Below, one piece after another: positions 14,711 through 34,229 of a stretch of 64,000 nucleotides of DNA; within the stretch, counting starts at the first letter, position 1, and the number at the start of each line of letters is the position of its first letter. The stretch is taken from positions 124,001 to 188,000 of the forward strand of contig CACMBV010000001.1 of the NCBI GenBank assembly GCA_902612125.1, written 5' to 3'. Below the pieces are notes generated by a model. That model saw nothing but the letters and a program-made list of their open reading frames with translations, was not told where the DNA came from and made no database searches. The translations under genes were made by a program, and so were the position numbers. Origin of the DNA: an uncultured Verrucomicrobiota bacterium (GTDB lineage: Bacteria; Verrucomicrobiota; Verrucomicrobiia; Opitutales; Seribacteraceae).

Positions 14711-16015
14711 TCAGATAAAATCGTTGACCAGATTTTCCAGCATTTCCTGACGACCACTCGCTAGTGTTGGCTCGCCATTACTCAATGCATACTGTTCCAA
14801 TTCCGCAAAACTTGTGGTACCCCCTTCAATCTTCGCTCCGATATCAATGTCGTAACTGGAATAACGATCCTGCACAAACTGGGCTAATCGTCCATCTTCA
14901 CGAATGGCATGGGCTACTTTCAAACCACGGGCAAAGGCGTCCATTCCGCCAATGTGTGCGTGCATCAAATCGATGGGTTCATGAGACTCGCGTCGGCGCT
15001 TGGCATCAAAATTCAAGCCCCCTGTTCTGAAACCGCCAATTCCTAAAAGTACCAGCATGATCTCCGTGGTCATGTAAATATCGGTAGGGAACTGATCGGT
15101 GTCCCAACCAATCAGGGTGTCACCCGTATTGGCATCCACACTACCAAGGGCATCCGCATTCGCGGCTACAGTCAGGTCGTGTTGTACGGTATGTCCGGCG
15201 AGTGTGGCATGGTTCGTCTCAATATTAAGTTTGAAATGATCGAGCAAGTTATACTCGCGTAGGAAATTCAGACAGGCTGCCGAGTCACTGTCGTATTGGT
15301 GGGTGGATGGCTCACGAGGCTTTGGTTCAATATAAAATGGACCGTCAAATCCAATATTCTTTGCATGATCCACCGCCATATGAAGGAAAGCTCCAAGGTG
15401 ATCAAGCTCTCGTTTCATGTTGGTATTAATCAGGGATCCATATCCTTCGCGACCACCCCAGAAAGTATATCCCAGACCGTCGAGTTCCTTGGTTACCTCC
15501 ATTGCTTTCTTAACTTGTGCCGCCGCATAGGCATATACCCGTGCATCCGGTGAAGTTGCGGCCCCGTGTGCATATCGCGGATGGGCAAACAAACAGGCGG
15601 TTCCCCAAAGAAGTTTCTTGCCGGACTCCGCCTGCTTCTCTTTCAGCTTCGCCACGACCTGATCTAGGGCATCATTGGATGCTGAAAGATCATTTAACTC
15701 CGGGGCAATATCTCGGTCGTGAAAACAATAGTAATCAATACCAATTTTATCCAGGAATTCGAAAAATACATCCACCCGGGCAAGGGCGTTCTCCACTGAA
15801 TTACTCTTGTTATCCCATGGCATCTGGGCAGTACCTGCACCAAATGGATCGGCCAATTCGTTCCGCATTACATGCCAGTAAGCGGCCCCAAATCGAAGGT
15901 GGTCCTTCATCGCTTTTCCACCGACTTCTTCAGTCGCGTTGTAGTGCTTGAAGGATAAAGCATTTTTAGAGTCAGGTCCTTCGTATTGAATCTTTTCGCA
16001 ATCGAAATATTGCAT
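14711..16015 (-). CDS. xylA: Xylose isomerase
   Basis: '[23 protein letters not shown]', '[13 protein letters not shown]', '[28 protein letters not shown]', '[21 protein letters not shown]', '[14 protein letters not shown]'. Confidence 0.95.
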
Positions 16016-16895: not shown

Positions 16896-19634
16896 TCAGT
16901 TACTCAAAAAGGTCTCGTCAAGGACGATGAGTTTGATTAAGTCTTTCATCCCTTCTTCGGAGCCATAAACTTGGTTAATAATGTTATCCACCGCAGGCCG
17001 GTCTCCACTGTTTAATTTTCGGCCAATCGCATAAGTCATCATCTTTTTAGTCAGGCAACGCAGAAAGGTTTCTTCCTGATCAATTACAAGCTCCCTAAAC
17101 TCTTCAGGTGTGGAAAAAGTCTCTCCGTTGGGAAGTTGACCAGATGGATCCACATCAAGTTTGCGGTCATACTTTACTCGCCATGCCCCAATCGCATCGT
17201 AGTTCTCCAGGGCAAATCCGGCGGGATCAATCTTCTTATGACACTGGGCACAGGAAGCATCTTCTCGGTGTTTAATTAGCTTTTCTTTTAAAGTGGTGGC
17301 CCCAGTTACATCCGGCTCGATTTCCGGCACATCATCCGGTGGTGGTGGGGGAGTATAATCAAGAAGTTTGTTCATCACATAAATTCCACGTACCACCGGT
17401 GAGGTGTCCACTCCGTTGGCAGATGCAGTCAAAAAGCTACCATGACCAAGAATTCCGCCGCGTTCGGCCCCAGCCAAGCTGACTTTTCGAAATTCATTTC
17501 CCTCCAGCCCAGATATACCATAATGAGCAGCTAGTTCCCGGTTTATGTAACTGTAATCCGCAGTAAGCAATTCCAGGGGACGAAGATTATTCTTGAGTAC
17601 ATTCTCAAAAAGAAGTTCCGTTTCTTTCCTCATTGCACTCTCCAAATTATCCCGATAAAAACTTACGAATTCTCTGGAAGGTGGCATTTTTCCGATGTTG
17701 TCCAGTTCAAGCCAAACACGCAGAAAGTTACCTACGAAGCGTTTTCCCTTGGGGTCAGCAAGCATGCGGTCTACTTGTGTAGTTAAAATATCCGGATTCT
17801 TCAGCTTTTCTTGCTCCGCGAGTTTAAATAGTTCAGCATCCGGCATGGAAGACCAAAGAAAGTAGGAAAGTCTCGAAGCCAGTGCATAATCATTTAATTC
17901 TCCCTCGCCTTCATTCAGGTAAAGAAAACCAGGCGCGGAGAGGATGGTTTGAAATCCTAGTTGCAGCGACTCCAGGGAAGACAAGCCCTCCCTCAGTTTC
18001 GCTTTAATCATCCCCAAGATAGGACTTAATTCACCCTCAAGTGGAGGACGACGAAAAGCAAACTTGGCAAATTGGGTCAGCCGCTCTTCAATAATTTCAG
18101 CACTTAAATCCTGCGGTGTAAGCTCATCGTAGAGAGCCTCATGACCTAGAGGTGGCCACTCATCAATGTGAGGACCATCCACTTGTATTTCCCATACCCG
18201 AAGAACCGGTCCTTTGTAGGCTCTGAGGGTACCATGCCAGCGTTCATAACCTTTCTCCTTCGCGGATTTCATCTGGAGAAAAGGTTGAAATTCGGGAAAT
18301 GTATCGGCTTTATTCAGCAACAACCGAACCAATCGCTTAGCCGCTGCCGTTCCGTTACGGAATCGAACCTCAGGCTCAAATCCCTTTTCCATATACCCAG
18401 TCCATTCAAACCATTCCGGCTCGGCCTCTTTCAATTCAAACGAAGTCAATGAAACTGATTTTGTAACATTTCCGCTTGTCCCGGCGGTGCTTCCTTTTCG
18501 ATCCACAGAAGCAAGCTCCATCACCAGTGGATCCCCATTCCGAAAATCACCCAGAATTTTTCCGTAGGGATGTAATCGGTTAACTGCCGCCGCCTTCACC
18601 CTTATGGTATAATTTCCACTGTGGGGAACCCCGCCGGCTTTATTCAAGGGTAAAAAGCCCAAGTGCCCGCCTCGATAAAAGCGACCATAAAGATCGGTGT
18701 AGGGAGTTTCAGGTTCGAAGCGGTAACGGTCTACTTTAAAAAGTTTGGGCAAACCATTGGATTTCTTTCCCCTAAAGTAAAAGGGTGATTTTTGTATATA
18801 GCTTTTGCTAACTGGTCGGTTTTCAAACTTCGTGGCCCGGGTAATTGCTCCTTCTGCGGCCGGAAAATATTTTTCCAGTAACAACCCGGAAGTTACCAAC
18901 TCAGCCCCGTCATTATCAAATCCATCCACATGTACATCCGCTGGAAAATCAGCAGATGGGTTCCACGACTCCGTATTTAGTCCGAGCAGGTCACTGATTG
19001 TATTGGAGTATTCAAACTTATTGAGACGACGCAAAACGGTGTGATTACTAATCCCGGAAAACTTCTCCCGAGCCTCAGCTATCTCATTGGTAATTAAATC
19101 AATTATCGCAAGTCTCTCAACTTCACTGGGCTGAGAGACATGCTCGGGTGGCATTTCTCCCAAATTCAGCTGATCTACAATTTCCTGCCAAAGTTCTTGT
19201 TCGCGGAAATCCTGAATCGATGAGGATAACAGGTCGAAACGACGATCCGCTTTCTGTTTTTCTTCACCGTGGCACTGGTAGCAATACTTACTGACAAATT
19301 CTCTGGGATTGGTATTCGTGACTAATGGATACTTTTCCTGTTCCTTTAAGGCATTCTGTACATAAGCTTGATCTGATCCCGAAAGAATGGATAGCGGAAA
19401 GAGGAATTGCTTGGAGTCACTTCTTTCAATGATAATCTTTTCCCCTGATCGGCTAATTAAATGTGCCTGTATTTCTACTCCTTCGCTTGAGGTCCAAGTA
19501 CGGAGTGGAAATTCAGCGGAAAAACATTGGAGTCCGAAAACCAATAAGAGAAAAGCCGAAGGCAGAAGATTACTCGAATAACTGCAAGCTATGAACCCAT
19601 AACGGGACCGATCAAAGAATGCCAATCTCAACAT
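16896..19634 (-). CDS. DUF1592/DUF1587/DUF1588/DUF1585/DUF1595 multidomain protein with c-type haem motifs
   Basis: CYQCHG and CAQCHK; 'VLRRLNKFEYSNTISDLLGL'; 'YALASRLSYFLWSSMPDAELF'; 'LDYTPPPPPDDVPEIEPDV'. Confidence 0.88.
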   Translation of the reverse strand: MLRLAFFDRSRYGFIACSYSSNLLPSAFLLLVFGLQCFSAEFPLRTWTSSEGVEIQAHLISRSGEKIIIERSDSKQFLFPLSILSGSDQAYVQNALKEQEKYPLVTNTNPREFVSKYCYQCHGEEKQKADRRFDLLSSSIQDFREQELWQEIVDQLNLGEMPPEHVSQPSEVERLAIIDLITNEIAEAREKFSGISNHTVLRRLNKFEYSNTISDLLGLNTESWNPSADFPADVHVDGFDNDGAELVTSGLLLEKYFPAAEGAITRATKFENRPVSKSYIQKSPFYFRGKKSNGLPKLFKVDRYRFEPETPYTDLYGRFYRGGHLGFLPLNKAGGVPHSGNYTIRVKAAAVNRLHPYGKILGDFRNGDPLVMELASVDRKGSTAGTSGNVTKSVSLTSFELKEAEPEWFEWTGYMEKGFEPEVRFRNGTAAAKRLVRLLLNKADTFPEFQPFLQMKSAKEKGYERWHGTLRAYKGPVLRVWEIQVDGPHIDEWPPLGHEALYDELTPQDLSAEIIEERLTQFAKFAFRRPPLEGELSPILGMIKAKLREGLSSLESLQLGFQTILSAPGFLYLNEGEGELNDYALASRLSYFLWSSMPDAELFKLAEQEKLKNPDILTTQVDRMLADPKGKRFVGNFLRVWLELDNIGKMPPSREFVSFYRDNLESAMRKETELLFENVLKNNLRPLELLTADYSYINRELAAHYGISGLEGNEFRKVSLAGAERGGILGHGSFLTASANGVDTSPVVRGIYVMNKLLDYTPPPPPDDVPEIEPDVTGATTLKEKLIKHREDASCAQCHKKIDPAGFALENYDAIGAWRVKYDRKLDVDPSGQLPNGETFSTPEEFRELVIDQEETFLRCLTKKMMTYAIGRKLNSGDRPAVDNIINQVYGSEEGMKDLIKLIVLDETFLSN

Positions 19635-19637
19635 TAC

Positions 19638-20903
19638 TTAGGAAAAATTCAGCCCTGAAAAAGTACCGGTGCTCTTCCCAAAATTATCCCGTTCCACTCC
19701 AAACCATTGTAGTGCGGACAGCCAAAGGTTACTCAAAGGTATCCGTTTATGATGCTCTTCCGGAGAAATAATATGCCCCTTGTGATTCAATCCACCCCCT
19801 GCCATTAGCACGGGTAAATTCTTATTGCTGTGCCTGGATCCGTCACTCATTCCGCTACCCACGATCACCAGGGTATCATCAAAAATCTTGGCTTCCTGCA
19901 ACTTGGTAAACAACCGATTTACCTGGCTAAAAATATAATCCTCCGCAACCTGTAACTCCGCCAGTTTGTCCACTCCCTTACTGTGATGCGAAAGCCCATG
20001 ATAGCCGTAGGAGACTCCATCCAAATCGGTGGTGGTGAATCCAATTGGAATCTCAAAGGTGGCAACCCGGGTGGAATCCGTCTGCAAAGCAAGGGTGAGT
20101 AAATCAAAGAATAAAGGCATCTCCTCTATATCCATCCGTTCTTCATCGGTGATTGGACTTATTCCGGGCTCAGGCTTTGGCCGGTCAAGCCATTCCTTGG
20201 ACATTTGCAATCTGAGTTCGACCTCGCGTACCGAAGTCAGGTACTGATCCAGTTTATCACGATCAAAACCGTTGATTTTTCCCTGCAAGGATTTGGCGGA
20301 ACCCATGAGAGCGTCCAGTATGCTTCCCCGATGGGTCAGTCGTTTACGCTCAAGGTTTCTTTCAGACTGCGAGGACTGGGTAAATAAGGCATTAAACAAA
20401 CGAGCCGGGCTGTTAACCGGTGGAATTCGTACGCCGGTACGGGTCCAGCACATATCCGTACCCTCCCCAATTCCGGCAGTGATGGATGGAAAGCGGGCGG
20501 CGGTGCCGACATGTTCCGCAGCAATCTGATCGAGGGAAACATTTTTCTCCGGGAAACCCTTGGATTCTTGTTTTTTTACCCCGGTAAGAAAAGAATTTAC
20601 TCCGCCATGTCCCCCACCCACATCATGATCAAGGTGAGAAAAAACCGTGAAATTTTTCCTATGCCCTTCAATATTTTTCAGGGTTGGACTACTTACATAA
20701 TCCGTTCCCTCCTCCTTCGGGAAAAACGCACCTGGATAAAAGCCCAAGTGATTCCCAACCGCAAGAATTCGCTTGTTTCGAACTGTTTCAATTGCCCCGT
20801 AAGCCGTGGTGGATGTGCTTTCAAAGAACGGTATAGCTAATGCCAACCCTGCACCCCTTAAAAAGTTTCTTCGATCAATCATGCTCCGGCGTGTTAAATT
20901 CAT
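19638..20903 (-). CDS. DUF1552 family protein
   Basis: 'DRRNFLRGAGLALAIPFF', 'VFSHLDHDVGGGHGGVNSFLTG', 'ALQTDSTRVATFEI', 'YHGLSHH', 'VLMAGGGLNHKGHI'. Confidence 0.87.
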   Translation of the reverse strand: MNLTRRSMIDRRNFLRGAGLALAIPFFESTSTTAYGAIETVRNKRILAVGNHLGFYPGAFFPKEEGTDYVSSPTLKNIEGHRKNFTVFSHLDHDVGGGHGGVNSFLTGVKKQESKGFPEKNVSLDQIAAEHVGTAARFPSITAGIGEGTDMCWTRTGVRIPPVNSPARLFNALFTQSSQSERNLERKRLTHRGSILDALMGSAKSLQGKINGFDRDKLDQYLTSVREVELRLQMSKEWLDRPKPEPGISPITDEERMDIEEMPLFFDLLTLALQTDSTRVATFEIPIGFTTTDLDGVSYGYHGLSHHSKGVDKLAELQVAEDYIFSQVNRLFTKLQEAKIFDDTLVIVGSGMSDGSRHSNKNLPVLMAGGGLNHKGHIISPEEHHKRIPLSNLWLSALQWFGVERDNFGKSTGTFSGLNFS

Positions 20904-22693: not shown

Positions 22694-25009
22694 TCAGGAT
22701 ACAAAGGCCCGAAAGAAGGAGGGTAGTAAGATTCTCATTTTTTTCGTCCCTGTTACCACTGCCCGGTTTGCATGATAGAAAGACGGATCTTTTTTAATAA
22801 GTTCACCAATTTCCTGATACATGCGACCCGCCCAGCGGACCACAATCCTCATTCTTAGCGGTAGATAACGAATTCCTGCTTCTCCACTGGCATACCTTTG
22901 ATCCGCAAGCCTGAGCAGGCGGCTCTTAACTAGATTAATTTCTGCCAGAGATTTTGAATTCTCTGATAGCAGGGTGGAAACGGTGGGTAAGTTTTCAAAA
23001 AAATCTGCGGGTAGGTAAATCCTGTCTTTTTCCGCATCTTCATGAACATCCCGGCAGATATTTGTAAGTTGCATCGCGATACCCAGATCATCGGCATGCT
23101 GCAAGGCTTCTGTATCCGTAACTCCAAAAATTGGACAAGTCATCAATCCAATCGTTCCTGCCACTCCATGACAATATTTAATCAGCTCAGCTTCCGATTG
23201 AACCCGCACACGGTTCTGTTCACCGATCATCGCTTCCATTAATTCTGTCAGAGGCAACGAGGCCAAACCCCACCTGGCCTGAAGGAATCGATAATGGTCA
23301 AGGAGTTCGTGCGGATGATGATTTTTCCAACAGGTCATCGCTTCCTTCAGTTTCTCCCCTTCCCCCTCGTCCGCCCAATCATCCAGGGTCCTGCAAACAT
23401 AATATAACCTAAAAACAGCTTCAGCTCTTTCCTTCGGTAGCAGGAAGGAAGCAAGCGAGAAGGTACGACTTTTGGAGCGGAAAATCCGGTGAAATGCAAC
23501 CTCCTCACCGAGTCGGGAAGGGGGTACCAGTTTTTCCACCACCTTAGCCGAAGAGACCACTCCCGGAACTCCGGCTCCGGGGTGCGTACCCGCGCCGCAG
23601 AAATAAAGATTCTCCAGGTCTTCTGACCGGTTATGAAAACGAAACCATGCGGATTGCCGAAAGAGAGGGGCTATCGAAAACCCGCTACCCCATAAAGTGT
23701 TAAATTTACCTTCAAAATCGTCTGGAGTCACAAAATGAGAAACTTTGAGGCAGTCTCCCAGGCCGGGAAGCAGGGTTTTCTCCAACTGAGTCTGCACTTG
23801 CATGCGAATCCGCTCCCCCGCCTCCCGCCAATCAATATTGGCCAGCTTATTGGGGACTGGTGCCAGCACATAAAAAGCATCGCCGTCCTTCGGGGCCATA
23901 CTCGGATCCGTCGCTGACGGGCGGTGCAGGTAAAGACTCAGATCATCGGAAAGGATTTTCCGACCGTAAATATCTTTGAGCAATTCCTTGAAAGCCTTTC
24001 CCATGATGATGGTATGATGCTCGACACCGGGATAAGAACGACTCGTTCCAAAATACCAAACAAATAGGCCCATGGAAAATGAGAGGCGACCGAGTCTTTT
24101 GTCCGTCCATTTCGATCGGTGCTTGGCGGGAATTAAATCCCGGTATACCTTAGGAGGATCGGCGTCAAAAACGATCAAGTCGGCAGATTTTAGCTCCCCT
24201 GACTGCAGACGAATACCCGAGGCTTTTTTCCCCTCGACAAGCACCTCATTTACTTGCTGATTGAGCTCAAGTTTAACCCCCGCTTCCCTCATTAATGTTA
24301 CCAAGGCTTGGACCAATGCTCCGGTTCCTCCTTTGGGGAACCAAACTCCCCATTTTCTTTCCAAGTAATGAATAAGGCAATAAATGGAAGTGGTTTGCAG
24401 AGGATTTCCTCCGACTAAAAGGGGATGAATACTAAATGCCCGGCGTAAACGGTCATCCTTAAGAAAATTGCCAACCAGGGAATAAACTGAAAGGTAGCTT
24501 TTTAGGGCGAGAAGAGCCGGAACTTGAAAAATCATAGTCCGGAATCGATGAAAAGGTTGATCCGCCAGTTTTTCAAAACCCACGGCAAATATGTTTTTGG
24601 AGAAGTCGACCAGTTTTTCATATCCCGACCCTTCACCAGGAGAAAGACGGTTGATCTCGGCGATAGTATCTTCAAGACGTCCTCCGTAGTCCAATTTTGA
24701 ACCATCCACAAACTCAAACCGATACCAAGGCTCAACAGGAAGAAAATCTACATAATCCGATCTTTTTTTACCATACAGCTCGAATAGTTCATCAAACAAA
24801 AAAGGAGCTGTTATGACTGTTGGGCCTCCATCAAATTTATATTCCTCTATTTCGTATACTTGGGCCCGACCACCCGCTTTTGGATTATTATCAACCACGG
24901 AGACTTCATAGCCAAGTCTTCTAAGTCGTAAACTCATGGCTAGGCCGCCAAAACCGGCACCAACAACAATGGCTTTACGGGGGGGACAGGGATGGTTCCC
25001 GTTGATCAC
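22694..25009 (-). CDS. Bifunctional CrtI-CrtB fusion: phytoene desaturase (N) plus phytoene synthase (C)
   Basis: N-terminal FAD motif 'AIVVGAGFGGLAMSLRLRRLGYEVSVVDNNPKAGGRAQ' and C-terminal CrtI signature 'YFCGAGTHPGAGVPGVVSSAKV'. Phytoene synthase begins directly after: 'HRIFRSKSRTFSLASFLLPKERAEAVFRLYYVCRTLDDWADE', 'YCHGVAGTIGLMTCPIFG', 'QLTNICRDVHEDAEKDRIYLP'. Confidence 0.93.
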   Translation of the reverse strand: MINGNHPCPPRKAIVVGAGFGGLAMSLRLRRLGYEVSVVDNNPKAGGRAQVYEIEEYKFDGGPTVITAPFLFDELFELYGKKRSDYVDFLPVEPWYRFEFVDGSKLDYGGRLEDTIAEINRLSPGEGSGYEKLVDFSKNIFAVGFEKLADQPFHRFRTMIFQVPALLALKSYLSVYSLVGNFLKDDRLRRAFSIHPLLVGGNPLQTTSIYCLIHYLERKWGVWFPKGGTGALVQALVTLMREAGVKLELNQQVNEVLVEGKKASGIRLQSGELKSADLIVFDADPPKVYRDLIPAKHRSKWTDKRLGRLSFSMGLFVWYFGTSRSYPGVEHHTIIMGKAFKELLKDIYGRKILSDDLSLYLHRPSATDPSMAPKDGDAFYVLAPVPNKLANIDWREAGERIRMQVQTQLEKTLLPGLGDCLKVSHFVTPDDFEGKFNTLWGSGFSIAPLFRQSAWFRFHNRSEDLENLYFCGAGTHPGAGVPGVVSSAKVVEKLVPPSRLGEEVAFHRIFRSKSRTFSLASFLLPKERAEAVFRLYYVCRTLDDWADEGEGEKLKEAMTCWKNHHPHELLDHYRFLQARWGLASLPLTELMEAMIGEQNRVRVQSEAELIKYCHGVAGTIGLMTCPIFGVTDTEALQHADDLGIAMQLTNICRDVHEDAEKDRIYLPADFFENLPTVSTLLSENSKSLAEINLVKSRLLRLADQRYASGEAGIRYLPLRMRIVVRWAGRMYQEIGELIKKDPSFYHANRAVVTGTKKMRILLPSFFRAFVS

Positions 25010-30771: not shown

Positions 30772-32346
30772 TTACTTCCTACCTGACCAAAAGTCCGCAG
30801 TAGAATCGTAATTCGGGTTTGGCTTCATCATCTGGGCACCCACCCGGTTACGCCAACGATGAAGTTTGCGGAGCAGCTTATTGGCTTTCTCAACCTCGAT
30901 CTTGGCGAGGTCTTTTTGCTCTCCAATATCCTTGACCAGGTTAAACACTTGAACGGTTCCATTTTCAAAATATTCAAGCAGTTTGTAATCCCCGTCCCGA
31001 ATCGCACCTCCCGGACTTTGCATCCCATGGTTACTGTAATGTGGAAAATGCCAATAAATTGGCCCACGATCCATTTTCTTACCTTTAACTAAACGAGTTA
31101 TGCTCTTGCCATCAATCTTCTTGGGATCGTATGGAAAACCAAGCATTTCCAAAATGGTGGGGTAAAAATCAGTGCTGATAACCGGTTCATCGCAGATGAT
31201 ATTCTGCCTTCCCTGATGAGGCCATTTCACAATCATGGGAACCCGAACCCCGCCTTCATATAACCAGCCTTTAGCTCCACGCAAGGGAAGATTGGAACTC
31301 GAAGTCGCGGTATCCAATAGTTTTTGAGGAACCACCCGGGCCGGGGTTCCATTCATCACCGACATACCCCCATTGTCAGACATAAAGAATACAATGGTGT
31401 TTTCCACCAAGCCATGCTCCTTTAACTTAGCCATCAAGGTACCCAGGCTCTGATCCACCGCTTCCACCATTCCAGCGAACTGGACATTATCCTGCTTCTG
31501 TTTCACTTTCACCAAATCATTGGGGTAGGATTTATAACTATTGGCATAAAGAGGGCGTTTGATCAGTTCGTCCAATTCGGCCCGGGTGGGAAATGTTTGG
31601 CTATCCGGGTTGCCTTCGAGAATATAATCGGGCCCGGGCTGGGGTTTCATTCTTGCCAATTTCTTTTTGTATTTTTCCACGAGGTCCGGACGACCATGAA
31701 TGGGATCATGGACCGAGAAGTGGGACATGAAGAGAAGGAATGGCTTGTCCTTGTTGTCATCGATGTAGTTGGCCGCCAATTCCGCCAGGCGATCGGTGAC
31801 ATACTCGCCTCCATCCAGACCGGGAATTTTCTTGGGATTGTAGAATCCCCTCCGGCCCAGGTTGGAATTCACGGAATGGGGAACATGAAGATCAAAGCCA
31901 TGTTCGGTTGGACTGGTGTCCCTGCCCAAGTGCCACTTACCAAACAGTGCGGTGGCGTAACCTTCCTTCTTCAAAACCTCAGCCAGAGTGTTCTCCTTGG
32001 GATCCAGAGCCATGGCTTTGTCCGGGTTTAATAATATCTGGTATGGTCGATCGGATCGACCATTGAGCCACTCAGTTAAGTTCATAGTGGCAGGATACTT
32101 CCCAGTGAGAATGCTAGCCCGGGTGGGGGAACAAACATGACAGGCAGCATACCCGGAGGTAAACTTCACCCCCTCCTTGGCCAATTGGTCAATATGAGGC
32201 GTTTCATAAAAAGAGGATCCGTAACAAGCCACATCGGACCAGCCTAGGTCATCGACGAGAAAGAAAACAACATTTGGCTTCCCAGCCGAAATCTGAAAAG
32301 TACCAAAAGCGAATAGACAAAGAAAAAATGAATTTACATTTCTCAT
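30772..32346 (-). CDS. Sulfatase (arylsulfatase A-like)
   Basis: 'KPNVVFFLVDDLGWSDVACYGSSFYETPHID', C-S-P-T-R (HVCSPTRASILTGKYP), 'GKWHLG', 'FMSDNGG'. Confidence 0.94.
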   Translation of the reverse strand: MRNVNSFFLCLFAFGTFQISAGKPNVVFFLVDDLGWSDVACYGSSFYETPHIDQLAKEGVKFTSGYAACHVCSPTRASILTGKYPATMNLTEWLNGRSDRPYQILLNPDKAMALDPKENTLAEVLKKEGYATALFGKWHLGRDTSPTEHGFDLHVPHSVNSNLGRRGFYNPKKIPGLDGGEYVTDRLAELAANYIDDNKDKPFLLFMSHFSVHDPIHGRPDLVEKYKKKLARMKPQPGPDYILEGNPDSQTFPTRAELDELIKRPLYANSYKSYPNDLVKVKQKQDNVQFAGMVEAVDQSLGTLMAKLKEHGLVENTIVFFMSDNGGMSVMNGTPARVVPQKLLDTATSSSNLPLRGAKGWLYEGGVRVPMIVKWPHQGRQNIICDEPVISTDFYPTILEMLGFPYDPKKIDGKSITRLVKGKKMDRGPIYWHFPHYSNHGMQSPGGAIRDGDYKLLEYFENGTVQVFNLVKDIGEQKDLAKIEVEKANKLLRKLHRWRNRVGAQMMKPNPNYDSTADFWSGRK

Positions 32347-34229
32347 TTGGCATCTCCTTTGCGGTTAACATAAGCATAATAAGCACTCAGCATGATTCCA
32401 TCTCTCCCCTTAAACCAGGTATGGAGAGCGGTTGGGCCTTTCTTCAGGTTCATGGTGAAGATTACACCCTTGTCCTTGGGTGTGACCCGTTTGGTTAAAC
32501 CTTCGAACTGGTAGGACTTCTTTTCAGAAATCTTCAAGTGGTTATGTCCGCTGACGAATAACATTGCCTGAGTGATGGGCAAGGCCGTGCCACTGCCATC
32601 AGGCAAGGTTCCGCTGACTGTTCCGCCCGCTTCCTTGGGCCAGCGTCGCAGCTCAATCTCGTACTCTCCTGCCCTCGCCACATCAATGAGCCAATATCCA
32701 TTTTTCAATACTCCCCTCCGGATTTGCCCCTGCTGATCGACAAAGACATCGAGCCATTCGGTGGCTGATAATTTGCTCGGGTTCTCGTACTTGGATCCTA
32801 CGATTATCCTCTGTTCCTGATTTGCCAAATCCTTCACCCCTTCCCACCAGGAGTATAATTGCCGGCGCATTTTGGCCACCACTGTGGGGTAATGATCAAT
32901 TACATTTTCCTGCTGCAAGGGGTCCGATGCGAGGTCATAGAGTTCACGATCTTCAAGCAGTCGCCAGCGTTTCCAGAGCACCGCAGCCTGATCGGCCCGC
33001 ATCTGAGTCTGAGAATGAGGCGAAGGGTAATTGGAAAACCCAGGCATGCGACTGTAGTTAATGATTAGAATACGATTCTGGGGAACCTGTTCTTTCCCTT
33101 GAAGGACAGTGGCCAGACTGATGCCGTCAAACTTGGCATTTTTCTTAGGTTTGATTCCGCATAAATCCAACAGGGTGGGCAACAGGTCCTGAACCTGAGT
33201 AAGGCCACTCACATCGCGGGGTTTACCAAATCCACCTTTTGGCCAGCGAATAAAACAGGGTACCCGATGTCCACCCTCCCAGATCTCGGTTTTTTTTCCC
33301 CGCATACCGGCATTGAAATACTGGGGCCCGAGTAGACTTCCATTGTCGGTCTTGAAGATTAAAATCGTATCTTCGGCCAGGTTCTCGTCTTCCAAGAATT
33401 TCATGAGCTTGCCCATATTCCAGTCGATATTGCGGATCATCCCCAAATAGAGAGCGAGGCGTTTTTTGAGACCAATATCCAAGTGATCGAATTTGGTCTG
33501 AGCAAGCAGCTTGGCAATCTCCTCTCGGTCCTCTTCCTTTGGCCAGAAGGGACCGTGTGGGGTGTTAGTGGCAAGATAACACATGAACGGCTTATTACTT
33601 TTCGCAGACTGCGACATAAATCGCTTCGCCTCATTAAAAAAAACGTCCGCACAATAGCCTTTGAACCGCTTTTCCTTCCCGTTTTGAATGTAAACATCGT
33701 CAAAATAATCATTACCCCAATAGGCGGGAACGGAGGGAATCGATGATGAAGGATACCAGACACTTTCCTGAAAACCCCGGTCCTGTGGCCTGAAGGGATA
33801 ATTGGCTCCGAGGTGCCATTTTCCAAACACTCCCGTAGAATAGCCCGCTTCCCCGTAAAAATCGGCAATGGTGGAAACTTCGGGTCGAAGGAGGGCCCGA
33901 CCGCTGCTGACATTAACCGCTCCGTTTCGAGCAGCATCCAAACCGGTAAGAAGTTGACCACGGGTGGGAGTACACATGGGTGCCACATGATAATCGGACA
34001 GACGAATGCTCTGCTGATAAAGACGGTCGAGATTTGGGGTCTGCAGGACCGGATTGCCATGAGCGGAGATTTCGGGATATCCCTGATCGTCAGTCATAAT
34101 GATTAAGACATTGGGACGGGCAACGACTGGCAAGCAAAGACAAGCAAGAACACCTATTAAAAAAGAATTTCGCACTTGGTTGTTCACGAAGTGTAATGCG
34201 GAATTCCTGAAAAGTAGTAAGATATGCAT
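32343..34229 (-). CDS. Sulfatase (arylsulfatase) with extended C-terminal domain
   Basis: 'RPNVLIIMTDDQGYPEISAHGNP', C-T-P-T-R (PMCTPTRGQLLTG), 'GVFGKWHLGANYP', 'FKTDNGSLLG'; 4-bp ATGA overlap with the next ORF. Confidence 0.93.
   Translation of the reverse strand: MHILLLFRNSALHFVNNQVRNSFLIGVLACLCLPVVARPNVLIIMTDDQGYPEISAHGNPVLQTPNLDRLYQQSIRLSDYHVAPMCTPTRGQLLTGLDAARNGAVNVSSGRALLRPEVSTIADFYGEAGYSTGVFGKWHLGANYPFRPQDRGFQESVWYPSSSIPSVPAYWGNDYFDDVYIQNGKEKRFKGYCADVFFNEAKRFMSQSAKSNKPFMCYLATNTPHGPFWPKEEDREEIAKLLAQTKFDHLDIGLKKRLALYLGMIRNIDWNMGKLMKFLEDENLAEDTILIFKTDNGSLLGPQYFNAGMRGKKTEIWEGGHRVPCFIRWPKGGFGKPRDVSGLTQVQDLLPTLLDLCGIKPKKNAKFDGISLATVLQGKEQVPQNRILIINYSRMPGFSNYPSPHSQTQMRADQAAVLWKRWRLLEDRELYDLASDPLQQENVIDHYPTVVAKMRRQLYSWWEGVKDLANQEQRIIVGSKYENPSKLSATEWLDVFVDQQGQIRRGVLKNGYWLIDVARAGEYEIELRRWPKEAGGTVSGTLPDGSGTALPITQAMLFVSGHNHLKISEKKSYQFEGLTKRVTPKDKGVIFTMNLKKGPTALHTWFKGRDGIMLSAYYAYVNRKGDAK

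Follow-up and report, generated by a model that had tools for sequence, protein, structure and literature searches.

A fused crtI-crtB gene in a proteorhodopsin operon of Opitutales and its predicted bifunctional phytoene desaturase/phytoene synthase

Is an open reading frame that joins a phytoene desaturase to a phytoene synthase inside a proteorhodopsin operon a genuine bifunctional gene, and how did it arise? This question was raised by crtIB, a predicted phytoene desaturase/phytoene synthase of 771 aa encoded on the minus strand at 22694..25009 of the window (the whole stretch of 64,000 nucleotides analyzed here). The ORF had a GTG start and no internal stops; the remaining two frames of its strand had 32 and 49 stops. 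The CrtI domain (23522..24973, minus strand, aa 13-496) scored 556 bits on TIGR02734 (NCBIfam crtI_fam), for which the cut-off is 238, spanning 1-489 of the 504 model positions, and the Pfam family Amino_oxidase (PF01593) was matched at aa 21-489. The phytoene synthase domain (SQS_PSY, PF00494) was located at 22751..23479 (minus strand, aa 511-753) with an E value of 9e-52. TIGR02734 and PF00494 thus confirmed a full CrtI and a full phytoene synthase on a single ORF, as an earlier note on this DNA had claimed. The linker between the domains (23480..23521, minus strand, aa 497-510) was short, as that note had said, though its length was about 14 residues and not about 10; this length did not vary among the main-clade fusions that were aligned.

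The catalytic motifs, described earlier as intact in both domains, were invariant in 20 aligned fusions. These were the FAD-site motif GxGFGG (aa 17-22; G17 and G19-G22) and GxHPGAG (aa 474-480; H476-G480) in the CrtI part, and DDxxD (aa 543-547, here DDWAD; D543, D544 and D547) and NxxRDxxxD (aa 650-658, here NICRDVHED; N650, R653, D654 and D658) in the synthase part. The best equivalog for the CrtB part was 15-cis-phytoene synthase at 140 bits, under the model cut-off of 500, and the operon context supports phytoene rather than squalene as its predicted product. An AlphaFold model of the protein had a mean pLDDT of 76 and a pTM of 0.79, with parts of the CrtI domain below 50 pLDDT and no inter-domain error estimate, so domain orientation was left aside; the CrtI fold in the model matched 4rep and 4dgk.

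The placement of crtIB inside a proteorhodopsin operon was borne out by its neighbors. On the minus strand, the order was a proteorhodopsin-type proton pump (26793-25978, 271 aa; PF01036, E value of 2e-47), crtE for a polyprenyl (GGPP) synthase (25955-25044, 303 aa; PF00348), crtIB (25009-22694), a CrtYcd-type lycopene cyclase (22687-21992, 231 aa; two TIGR03462 stretches) and blh (22025-20931; TIGR03753). The operon is a complete GGPP-to-retinal path adjoining its user, the rhodopsin. The rhodopsin, crtE, crtIB and cyclase genes were spaced by 22, 34 and 6 nt, and the cyclase gene and blh overlapped by 34 nt, so that a single transcript would be expected. Scanning 5' of the rhodopsin gene returned 4 sigma-70-like sites when 2.3 were expected, which gave no evidence of a promoter there. 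Helix C of the rhodopsin reads RYIDWLITVPLQIVEF, with Q at the usual spectral-tuning site, indicating a pump that is probably blue-absorbing; the retinal lysine was read directly from the sequence within NLADLVNKAAF. Elsewhere in the window, a xylose isomerase-like ORF (14711-16015), a DUF1592/DUF1552-type pair adjoining the operon (16896-20903) and two sulfatases (30772-34229) were identified by sequence recognition only. The DUF1592/DUF1552-type pair also lay beside the operon in two related loci (L003 and L004).

A fused frame could be an assembly or sequencing artefact in which adjacent genes were joined through a missed stop or frameshift, the more so as crtI and crtB abut or overlap in unfused relatives and a single error could join them. 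Against this, the frame stayed open across the fusion in about 20 SAG/MAG assemblies, which stemmed from more than one project, and also in G212, a genome on a single contig; the linker length was constant and dN/dS was far under 1. The recurrence in about 20 separate assemblies refutes an artefact in the main clade and excludes the missed stop or frameshift that the earlier note had named as a refutation; we consider the chance of such an error negligible. A close-locus search, in which one genome per species was scanned, returned about 20 loci, all fused except L023, and the gene order PR-crtE-crtIB-crtY-blh was common to most of them. The gene is under strong purifying selection: between the window's crtIB and that of L004, dN was 0.087 and dS 1.68 in the CrtI part (dN/dS about 0.05), and dN was 0.092 and dS 1.13 in the CrtB part (dN/dS about 0.08).

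Two irregular loci were also observed. In L023 (G065:C6), crtIB was frameshifted near CrtI residue 246, giving frames of 251 aa and 533 aa, while the rest of the operon was complete; this copy is either a pseudogene or a sequence error. In L010 (812-1820; G097:C48), the rhodopsin gene was matched as two segments, residues 40-82 and residues 107-267, about 390 bp apart, suggesting an insertion or an assembly fault.

When 273 genomes of the order Opitutales were surveyed, fused copies were present in four families. The main type occurred in 10 genomes of the window's genus and in G011, G195, G251, G212 and G244; further copies were frameshifted in G065 and divergent in G256. The rarity implied by the earlier note was not upheld: the fusion is routine in the clade, which that note had named as a second refutation, and Bar-Shalom et al. 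(2023, PMC10284914) had already described it as the trait that sets verrucomicrobial 'PR-1' operons apart. Among the 27 genomes of the window's genus, several of which are incomplete, crtIB was found in 10 and rhodopsin was detected in nine, all of them crtIB carriers, indicating that the cassette is patchy but moves as a unit. In the tenth carrier (G185), the contig ended inside crtE. Rhodopsin-linked crtI/crtB in this genus was fused in every case found, and no second full crtI or crtB was found in the window's genome, which gave a weak 58-residue match only; as this genome is 64% complete, it may still have separate extra copies elsewhere.

Spread to other phyla was considered from loci in assemblies labeled SAR92 (L011), Euryarchaeota (L021) and Gammaproteobacteria (L022), and was rejected when each assembly proved to hold its own, different crtI-type gene. 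Short of proof, we take these loci for binning errors or chimeric contigs and not for cases of transfer; the L022 copy was cut by the contig end and lacked its first 64 residues. By eye, REP-associated (IS200-like) transposase-like ORFs lay one on each side of the operon in L011 (720-1691 and 8531-9214), a possible route of cassette movement. No relative was found in IMG/VR. Viral origin or carriage was also rejected, with few matches in a phage collection, at 25-34% identity and to unannotated Staphylococcus and Listeria phage records. So was plasmid carriage, since every plasmid match was under 60% identity and the two-gene matches among those listed were annotated as separate genes.

Separate maximum-likelihood trees were built for the CrtI and CrtB domains from 64 rows. 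The 23 verrucomicrobial-type fusions, including that of the window, formed one clade with support of 100/100 in the CrtI tree and 100/99 in the CrtB tree, indicating a single fusion event for all 23. The nearest neighbors in the CrtI tree were unfused verrucomicrobial rhodopsin clusters and Legionella worsleiensis; those in the CrtB tree were less certain. In L. worsleiensis, the crtI stop TAG was followed nine bases on by the crtB ATG in the same frame; in a SAR92 genome, crtI and crtB shared one frame with one stop between them, and the two genes overlapped in other unfused relatives. Such abutting or overlapping pairs show that fusion is an easy step. We conclude with high confidence that crtIB encodes a genuine bifunctional enzyme of marine Verrucomicrobiota (Opitutales) that arose by one ancestral fusion of adjacent crtI and crtB and was inherited with the rhodopsin cassette. 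Its domains, motifs, operon, conservation and the single origin of its clade were computed; its reactions are predicted from homology.

Two more fused lineages were placed outside this clade by the CrtI tree and the CrtB tree alike, and strongly supported there. One was in G256 (Opitutales, f13; L122, G256:C1:481592-483847), where the operon order was rhodopsin-crtE-crtIB-crtY-blh and the cyclase was of the classical FAD type (PF05834), showing that this cassette is of another lineage than the window's. This fusion was present in one of nine genomes of its genus. Its junction reads GAAAAAGTGAATAAC, with five A's beside GTGA; if the run had four, two genes would overlap there at GTGA, and the fused frame may therefore reflect a sequencing error. 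The other lineage was found in three of 26 small Burkholderiaceae genomes (G615:C2, G618:C111 and G608:C220, being loci L155, L156 and L159; 91% identity), in which about 45 residues link the two domains; kin at 57-82% identity were unfused. PucC, UbiA-type (BchG-like) and BchP-like genes were neighbors of the G615 fusion, which probably sits in a bacteriochlorophyll cluster. No earlier description of either lineage was found in the main texts consulted.

In the proposed pathway, CrtE would supply GGPP, and the C-terminal phytoene synthase would join two GGPP into phytoene, which the N-terminal FAD-dependent desaturase would convert to lycopene. Four-step desaturation by the CrtI domain is predicted from the lycopene cyclase and Blh encoded downstream. 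The CrtYcd-type cyclase would then form beta-carotene, and Blh would cleave it to retinal for the proteorhodopsin. Covalent linkage would fix a 1:1 stoichiometry and may ease the hand-over of hydrophobic phytoene; substrate transfer between the domains is plausible. Engineered yeast fusions have been cited for better metabolite transfer (Bar-Shalom et al., PMC10284914). We tentatively propose, at somewhat less than even odds, that bacteria have fused CrtI and CrtB on three or more separate occasions, always in light-related clusters, which would point to selection for covalently coupled phytoene hand-over. The fusion might instead be translated with no functional advantage: a stop codon would have been lost neutrally, drift would have fixed the loss, and the operon would have taken it along. 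Abutting in-frame genes need very few mutations to join, as crtI-stop-crtB in one frame in L. worsleiensis and SAR92 illustrates, and the main clade requires one fusion event only; yet no reversal to separate genes was seen in the 23-member clade, and the two additional fusions in light-related clusters suggest, without proving, an advantage. A neutral origin is a serious possibility, if not quite an even one. The fused enzyme offers a small, naturally occurring component for pathways to lycopene and retinal, and it provides a case in which to ask whether joining two genes aids the passage of an insoluble intermediate. Because independent fusions recur and closely related unfused pairs exist, this question can be put to natural enzymes by comparison, and it is the recurrent fusions that add modest interest beyond the published one.

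Among known systems, the CrtIBY of thraustochytrids and apusomonads (PMC5924542, PMC10016063) resembles crtIB in its CrtI-then-CrtB polypeptide and its link to beta-carotene and Blh. However, CrtIBY is eukaryotic, carries a third, cyclase domain and was placed elsewhere phylogenetically by its authors, whereas crtIB has no C-terminal cyclase domain and ends 6 nt ahead of a separate cyclase ORF. A verrucomicrobial CrtIB as the bacterial source of thraustochytrid and Thecamonas CrtIBY would fit the common I-B domain order, the CrtYcd-type cyclase just 3' of crtIB and the Blh that accompanies the protist proteins. This origin is most improbable, since Rius et al. (PMC10016063) assigned the protist domains, whose affinities differ, to 'ABA' lineages (Actinobacteria and others), and the nearest unfused kin of the window's CrtI are other Verrucomicrobiota, Legionella and Proteobacteria/Myxococcota. 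Fungal CrtYB is also a natural phytoene synthase fusion, but its partner is a cyclase and not a desaturase (PMC2889829). Thermomicrobium roseum was rejected as a prior report of the fusion, the genes being separate in its paper. The unfused verrucomicrobial rhodopsin clusters and L. worsleiensis share the rhodopsin-crtE-crtI-crtB order with the window's operon but encode two polypeptides, from overlapping or abutting genes. By contrast, the CrtIB of PR-1 operons (e.g., Ca. Pelagisphaera phototrophica ISCC53, PMC10284914) has the same domain order, proteorhodopsin operon type and phylum as the window's crtIB. The fused single-contig genome G212, which we infer to be the published PR-1 strain or close kin, belongs to a different family from the window's genus (71% identity). 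The crtIB fusion was thus already known, and the window's copy is a further instance of the PR-1 type.
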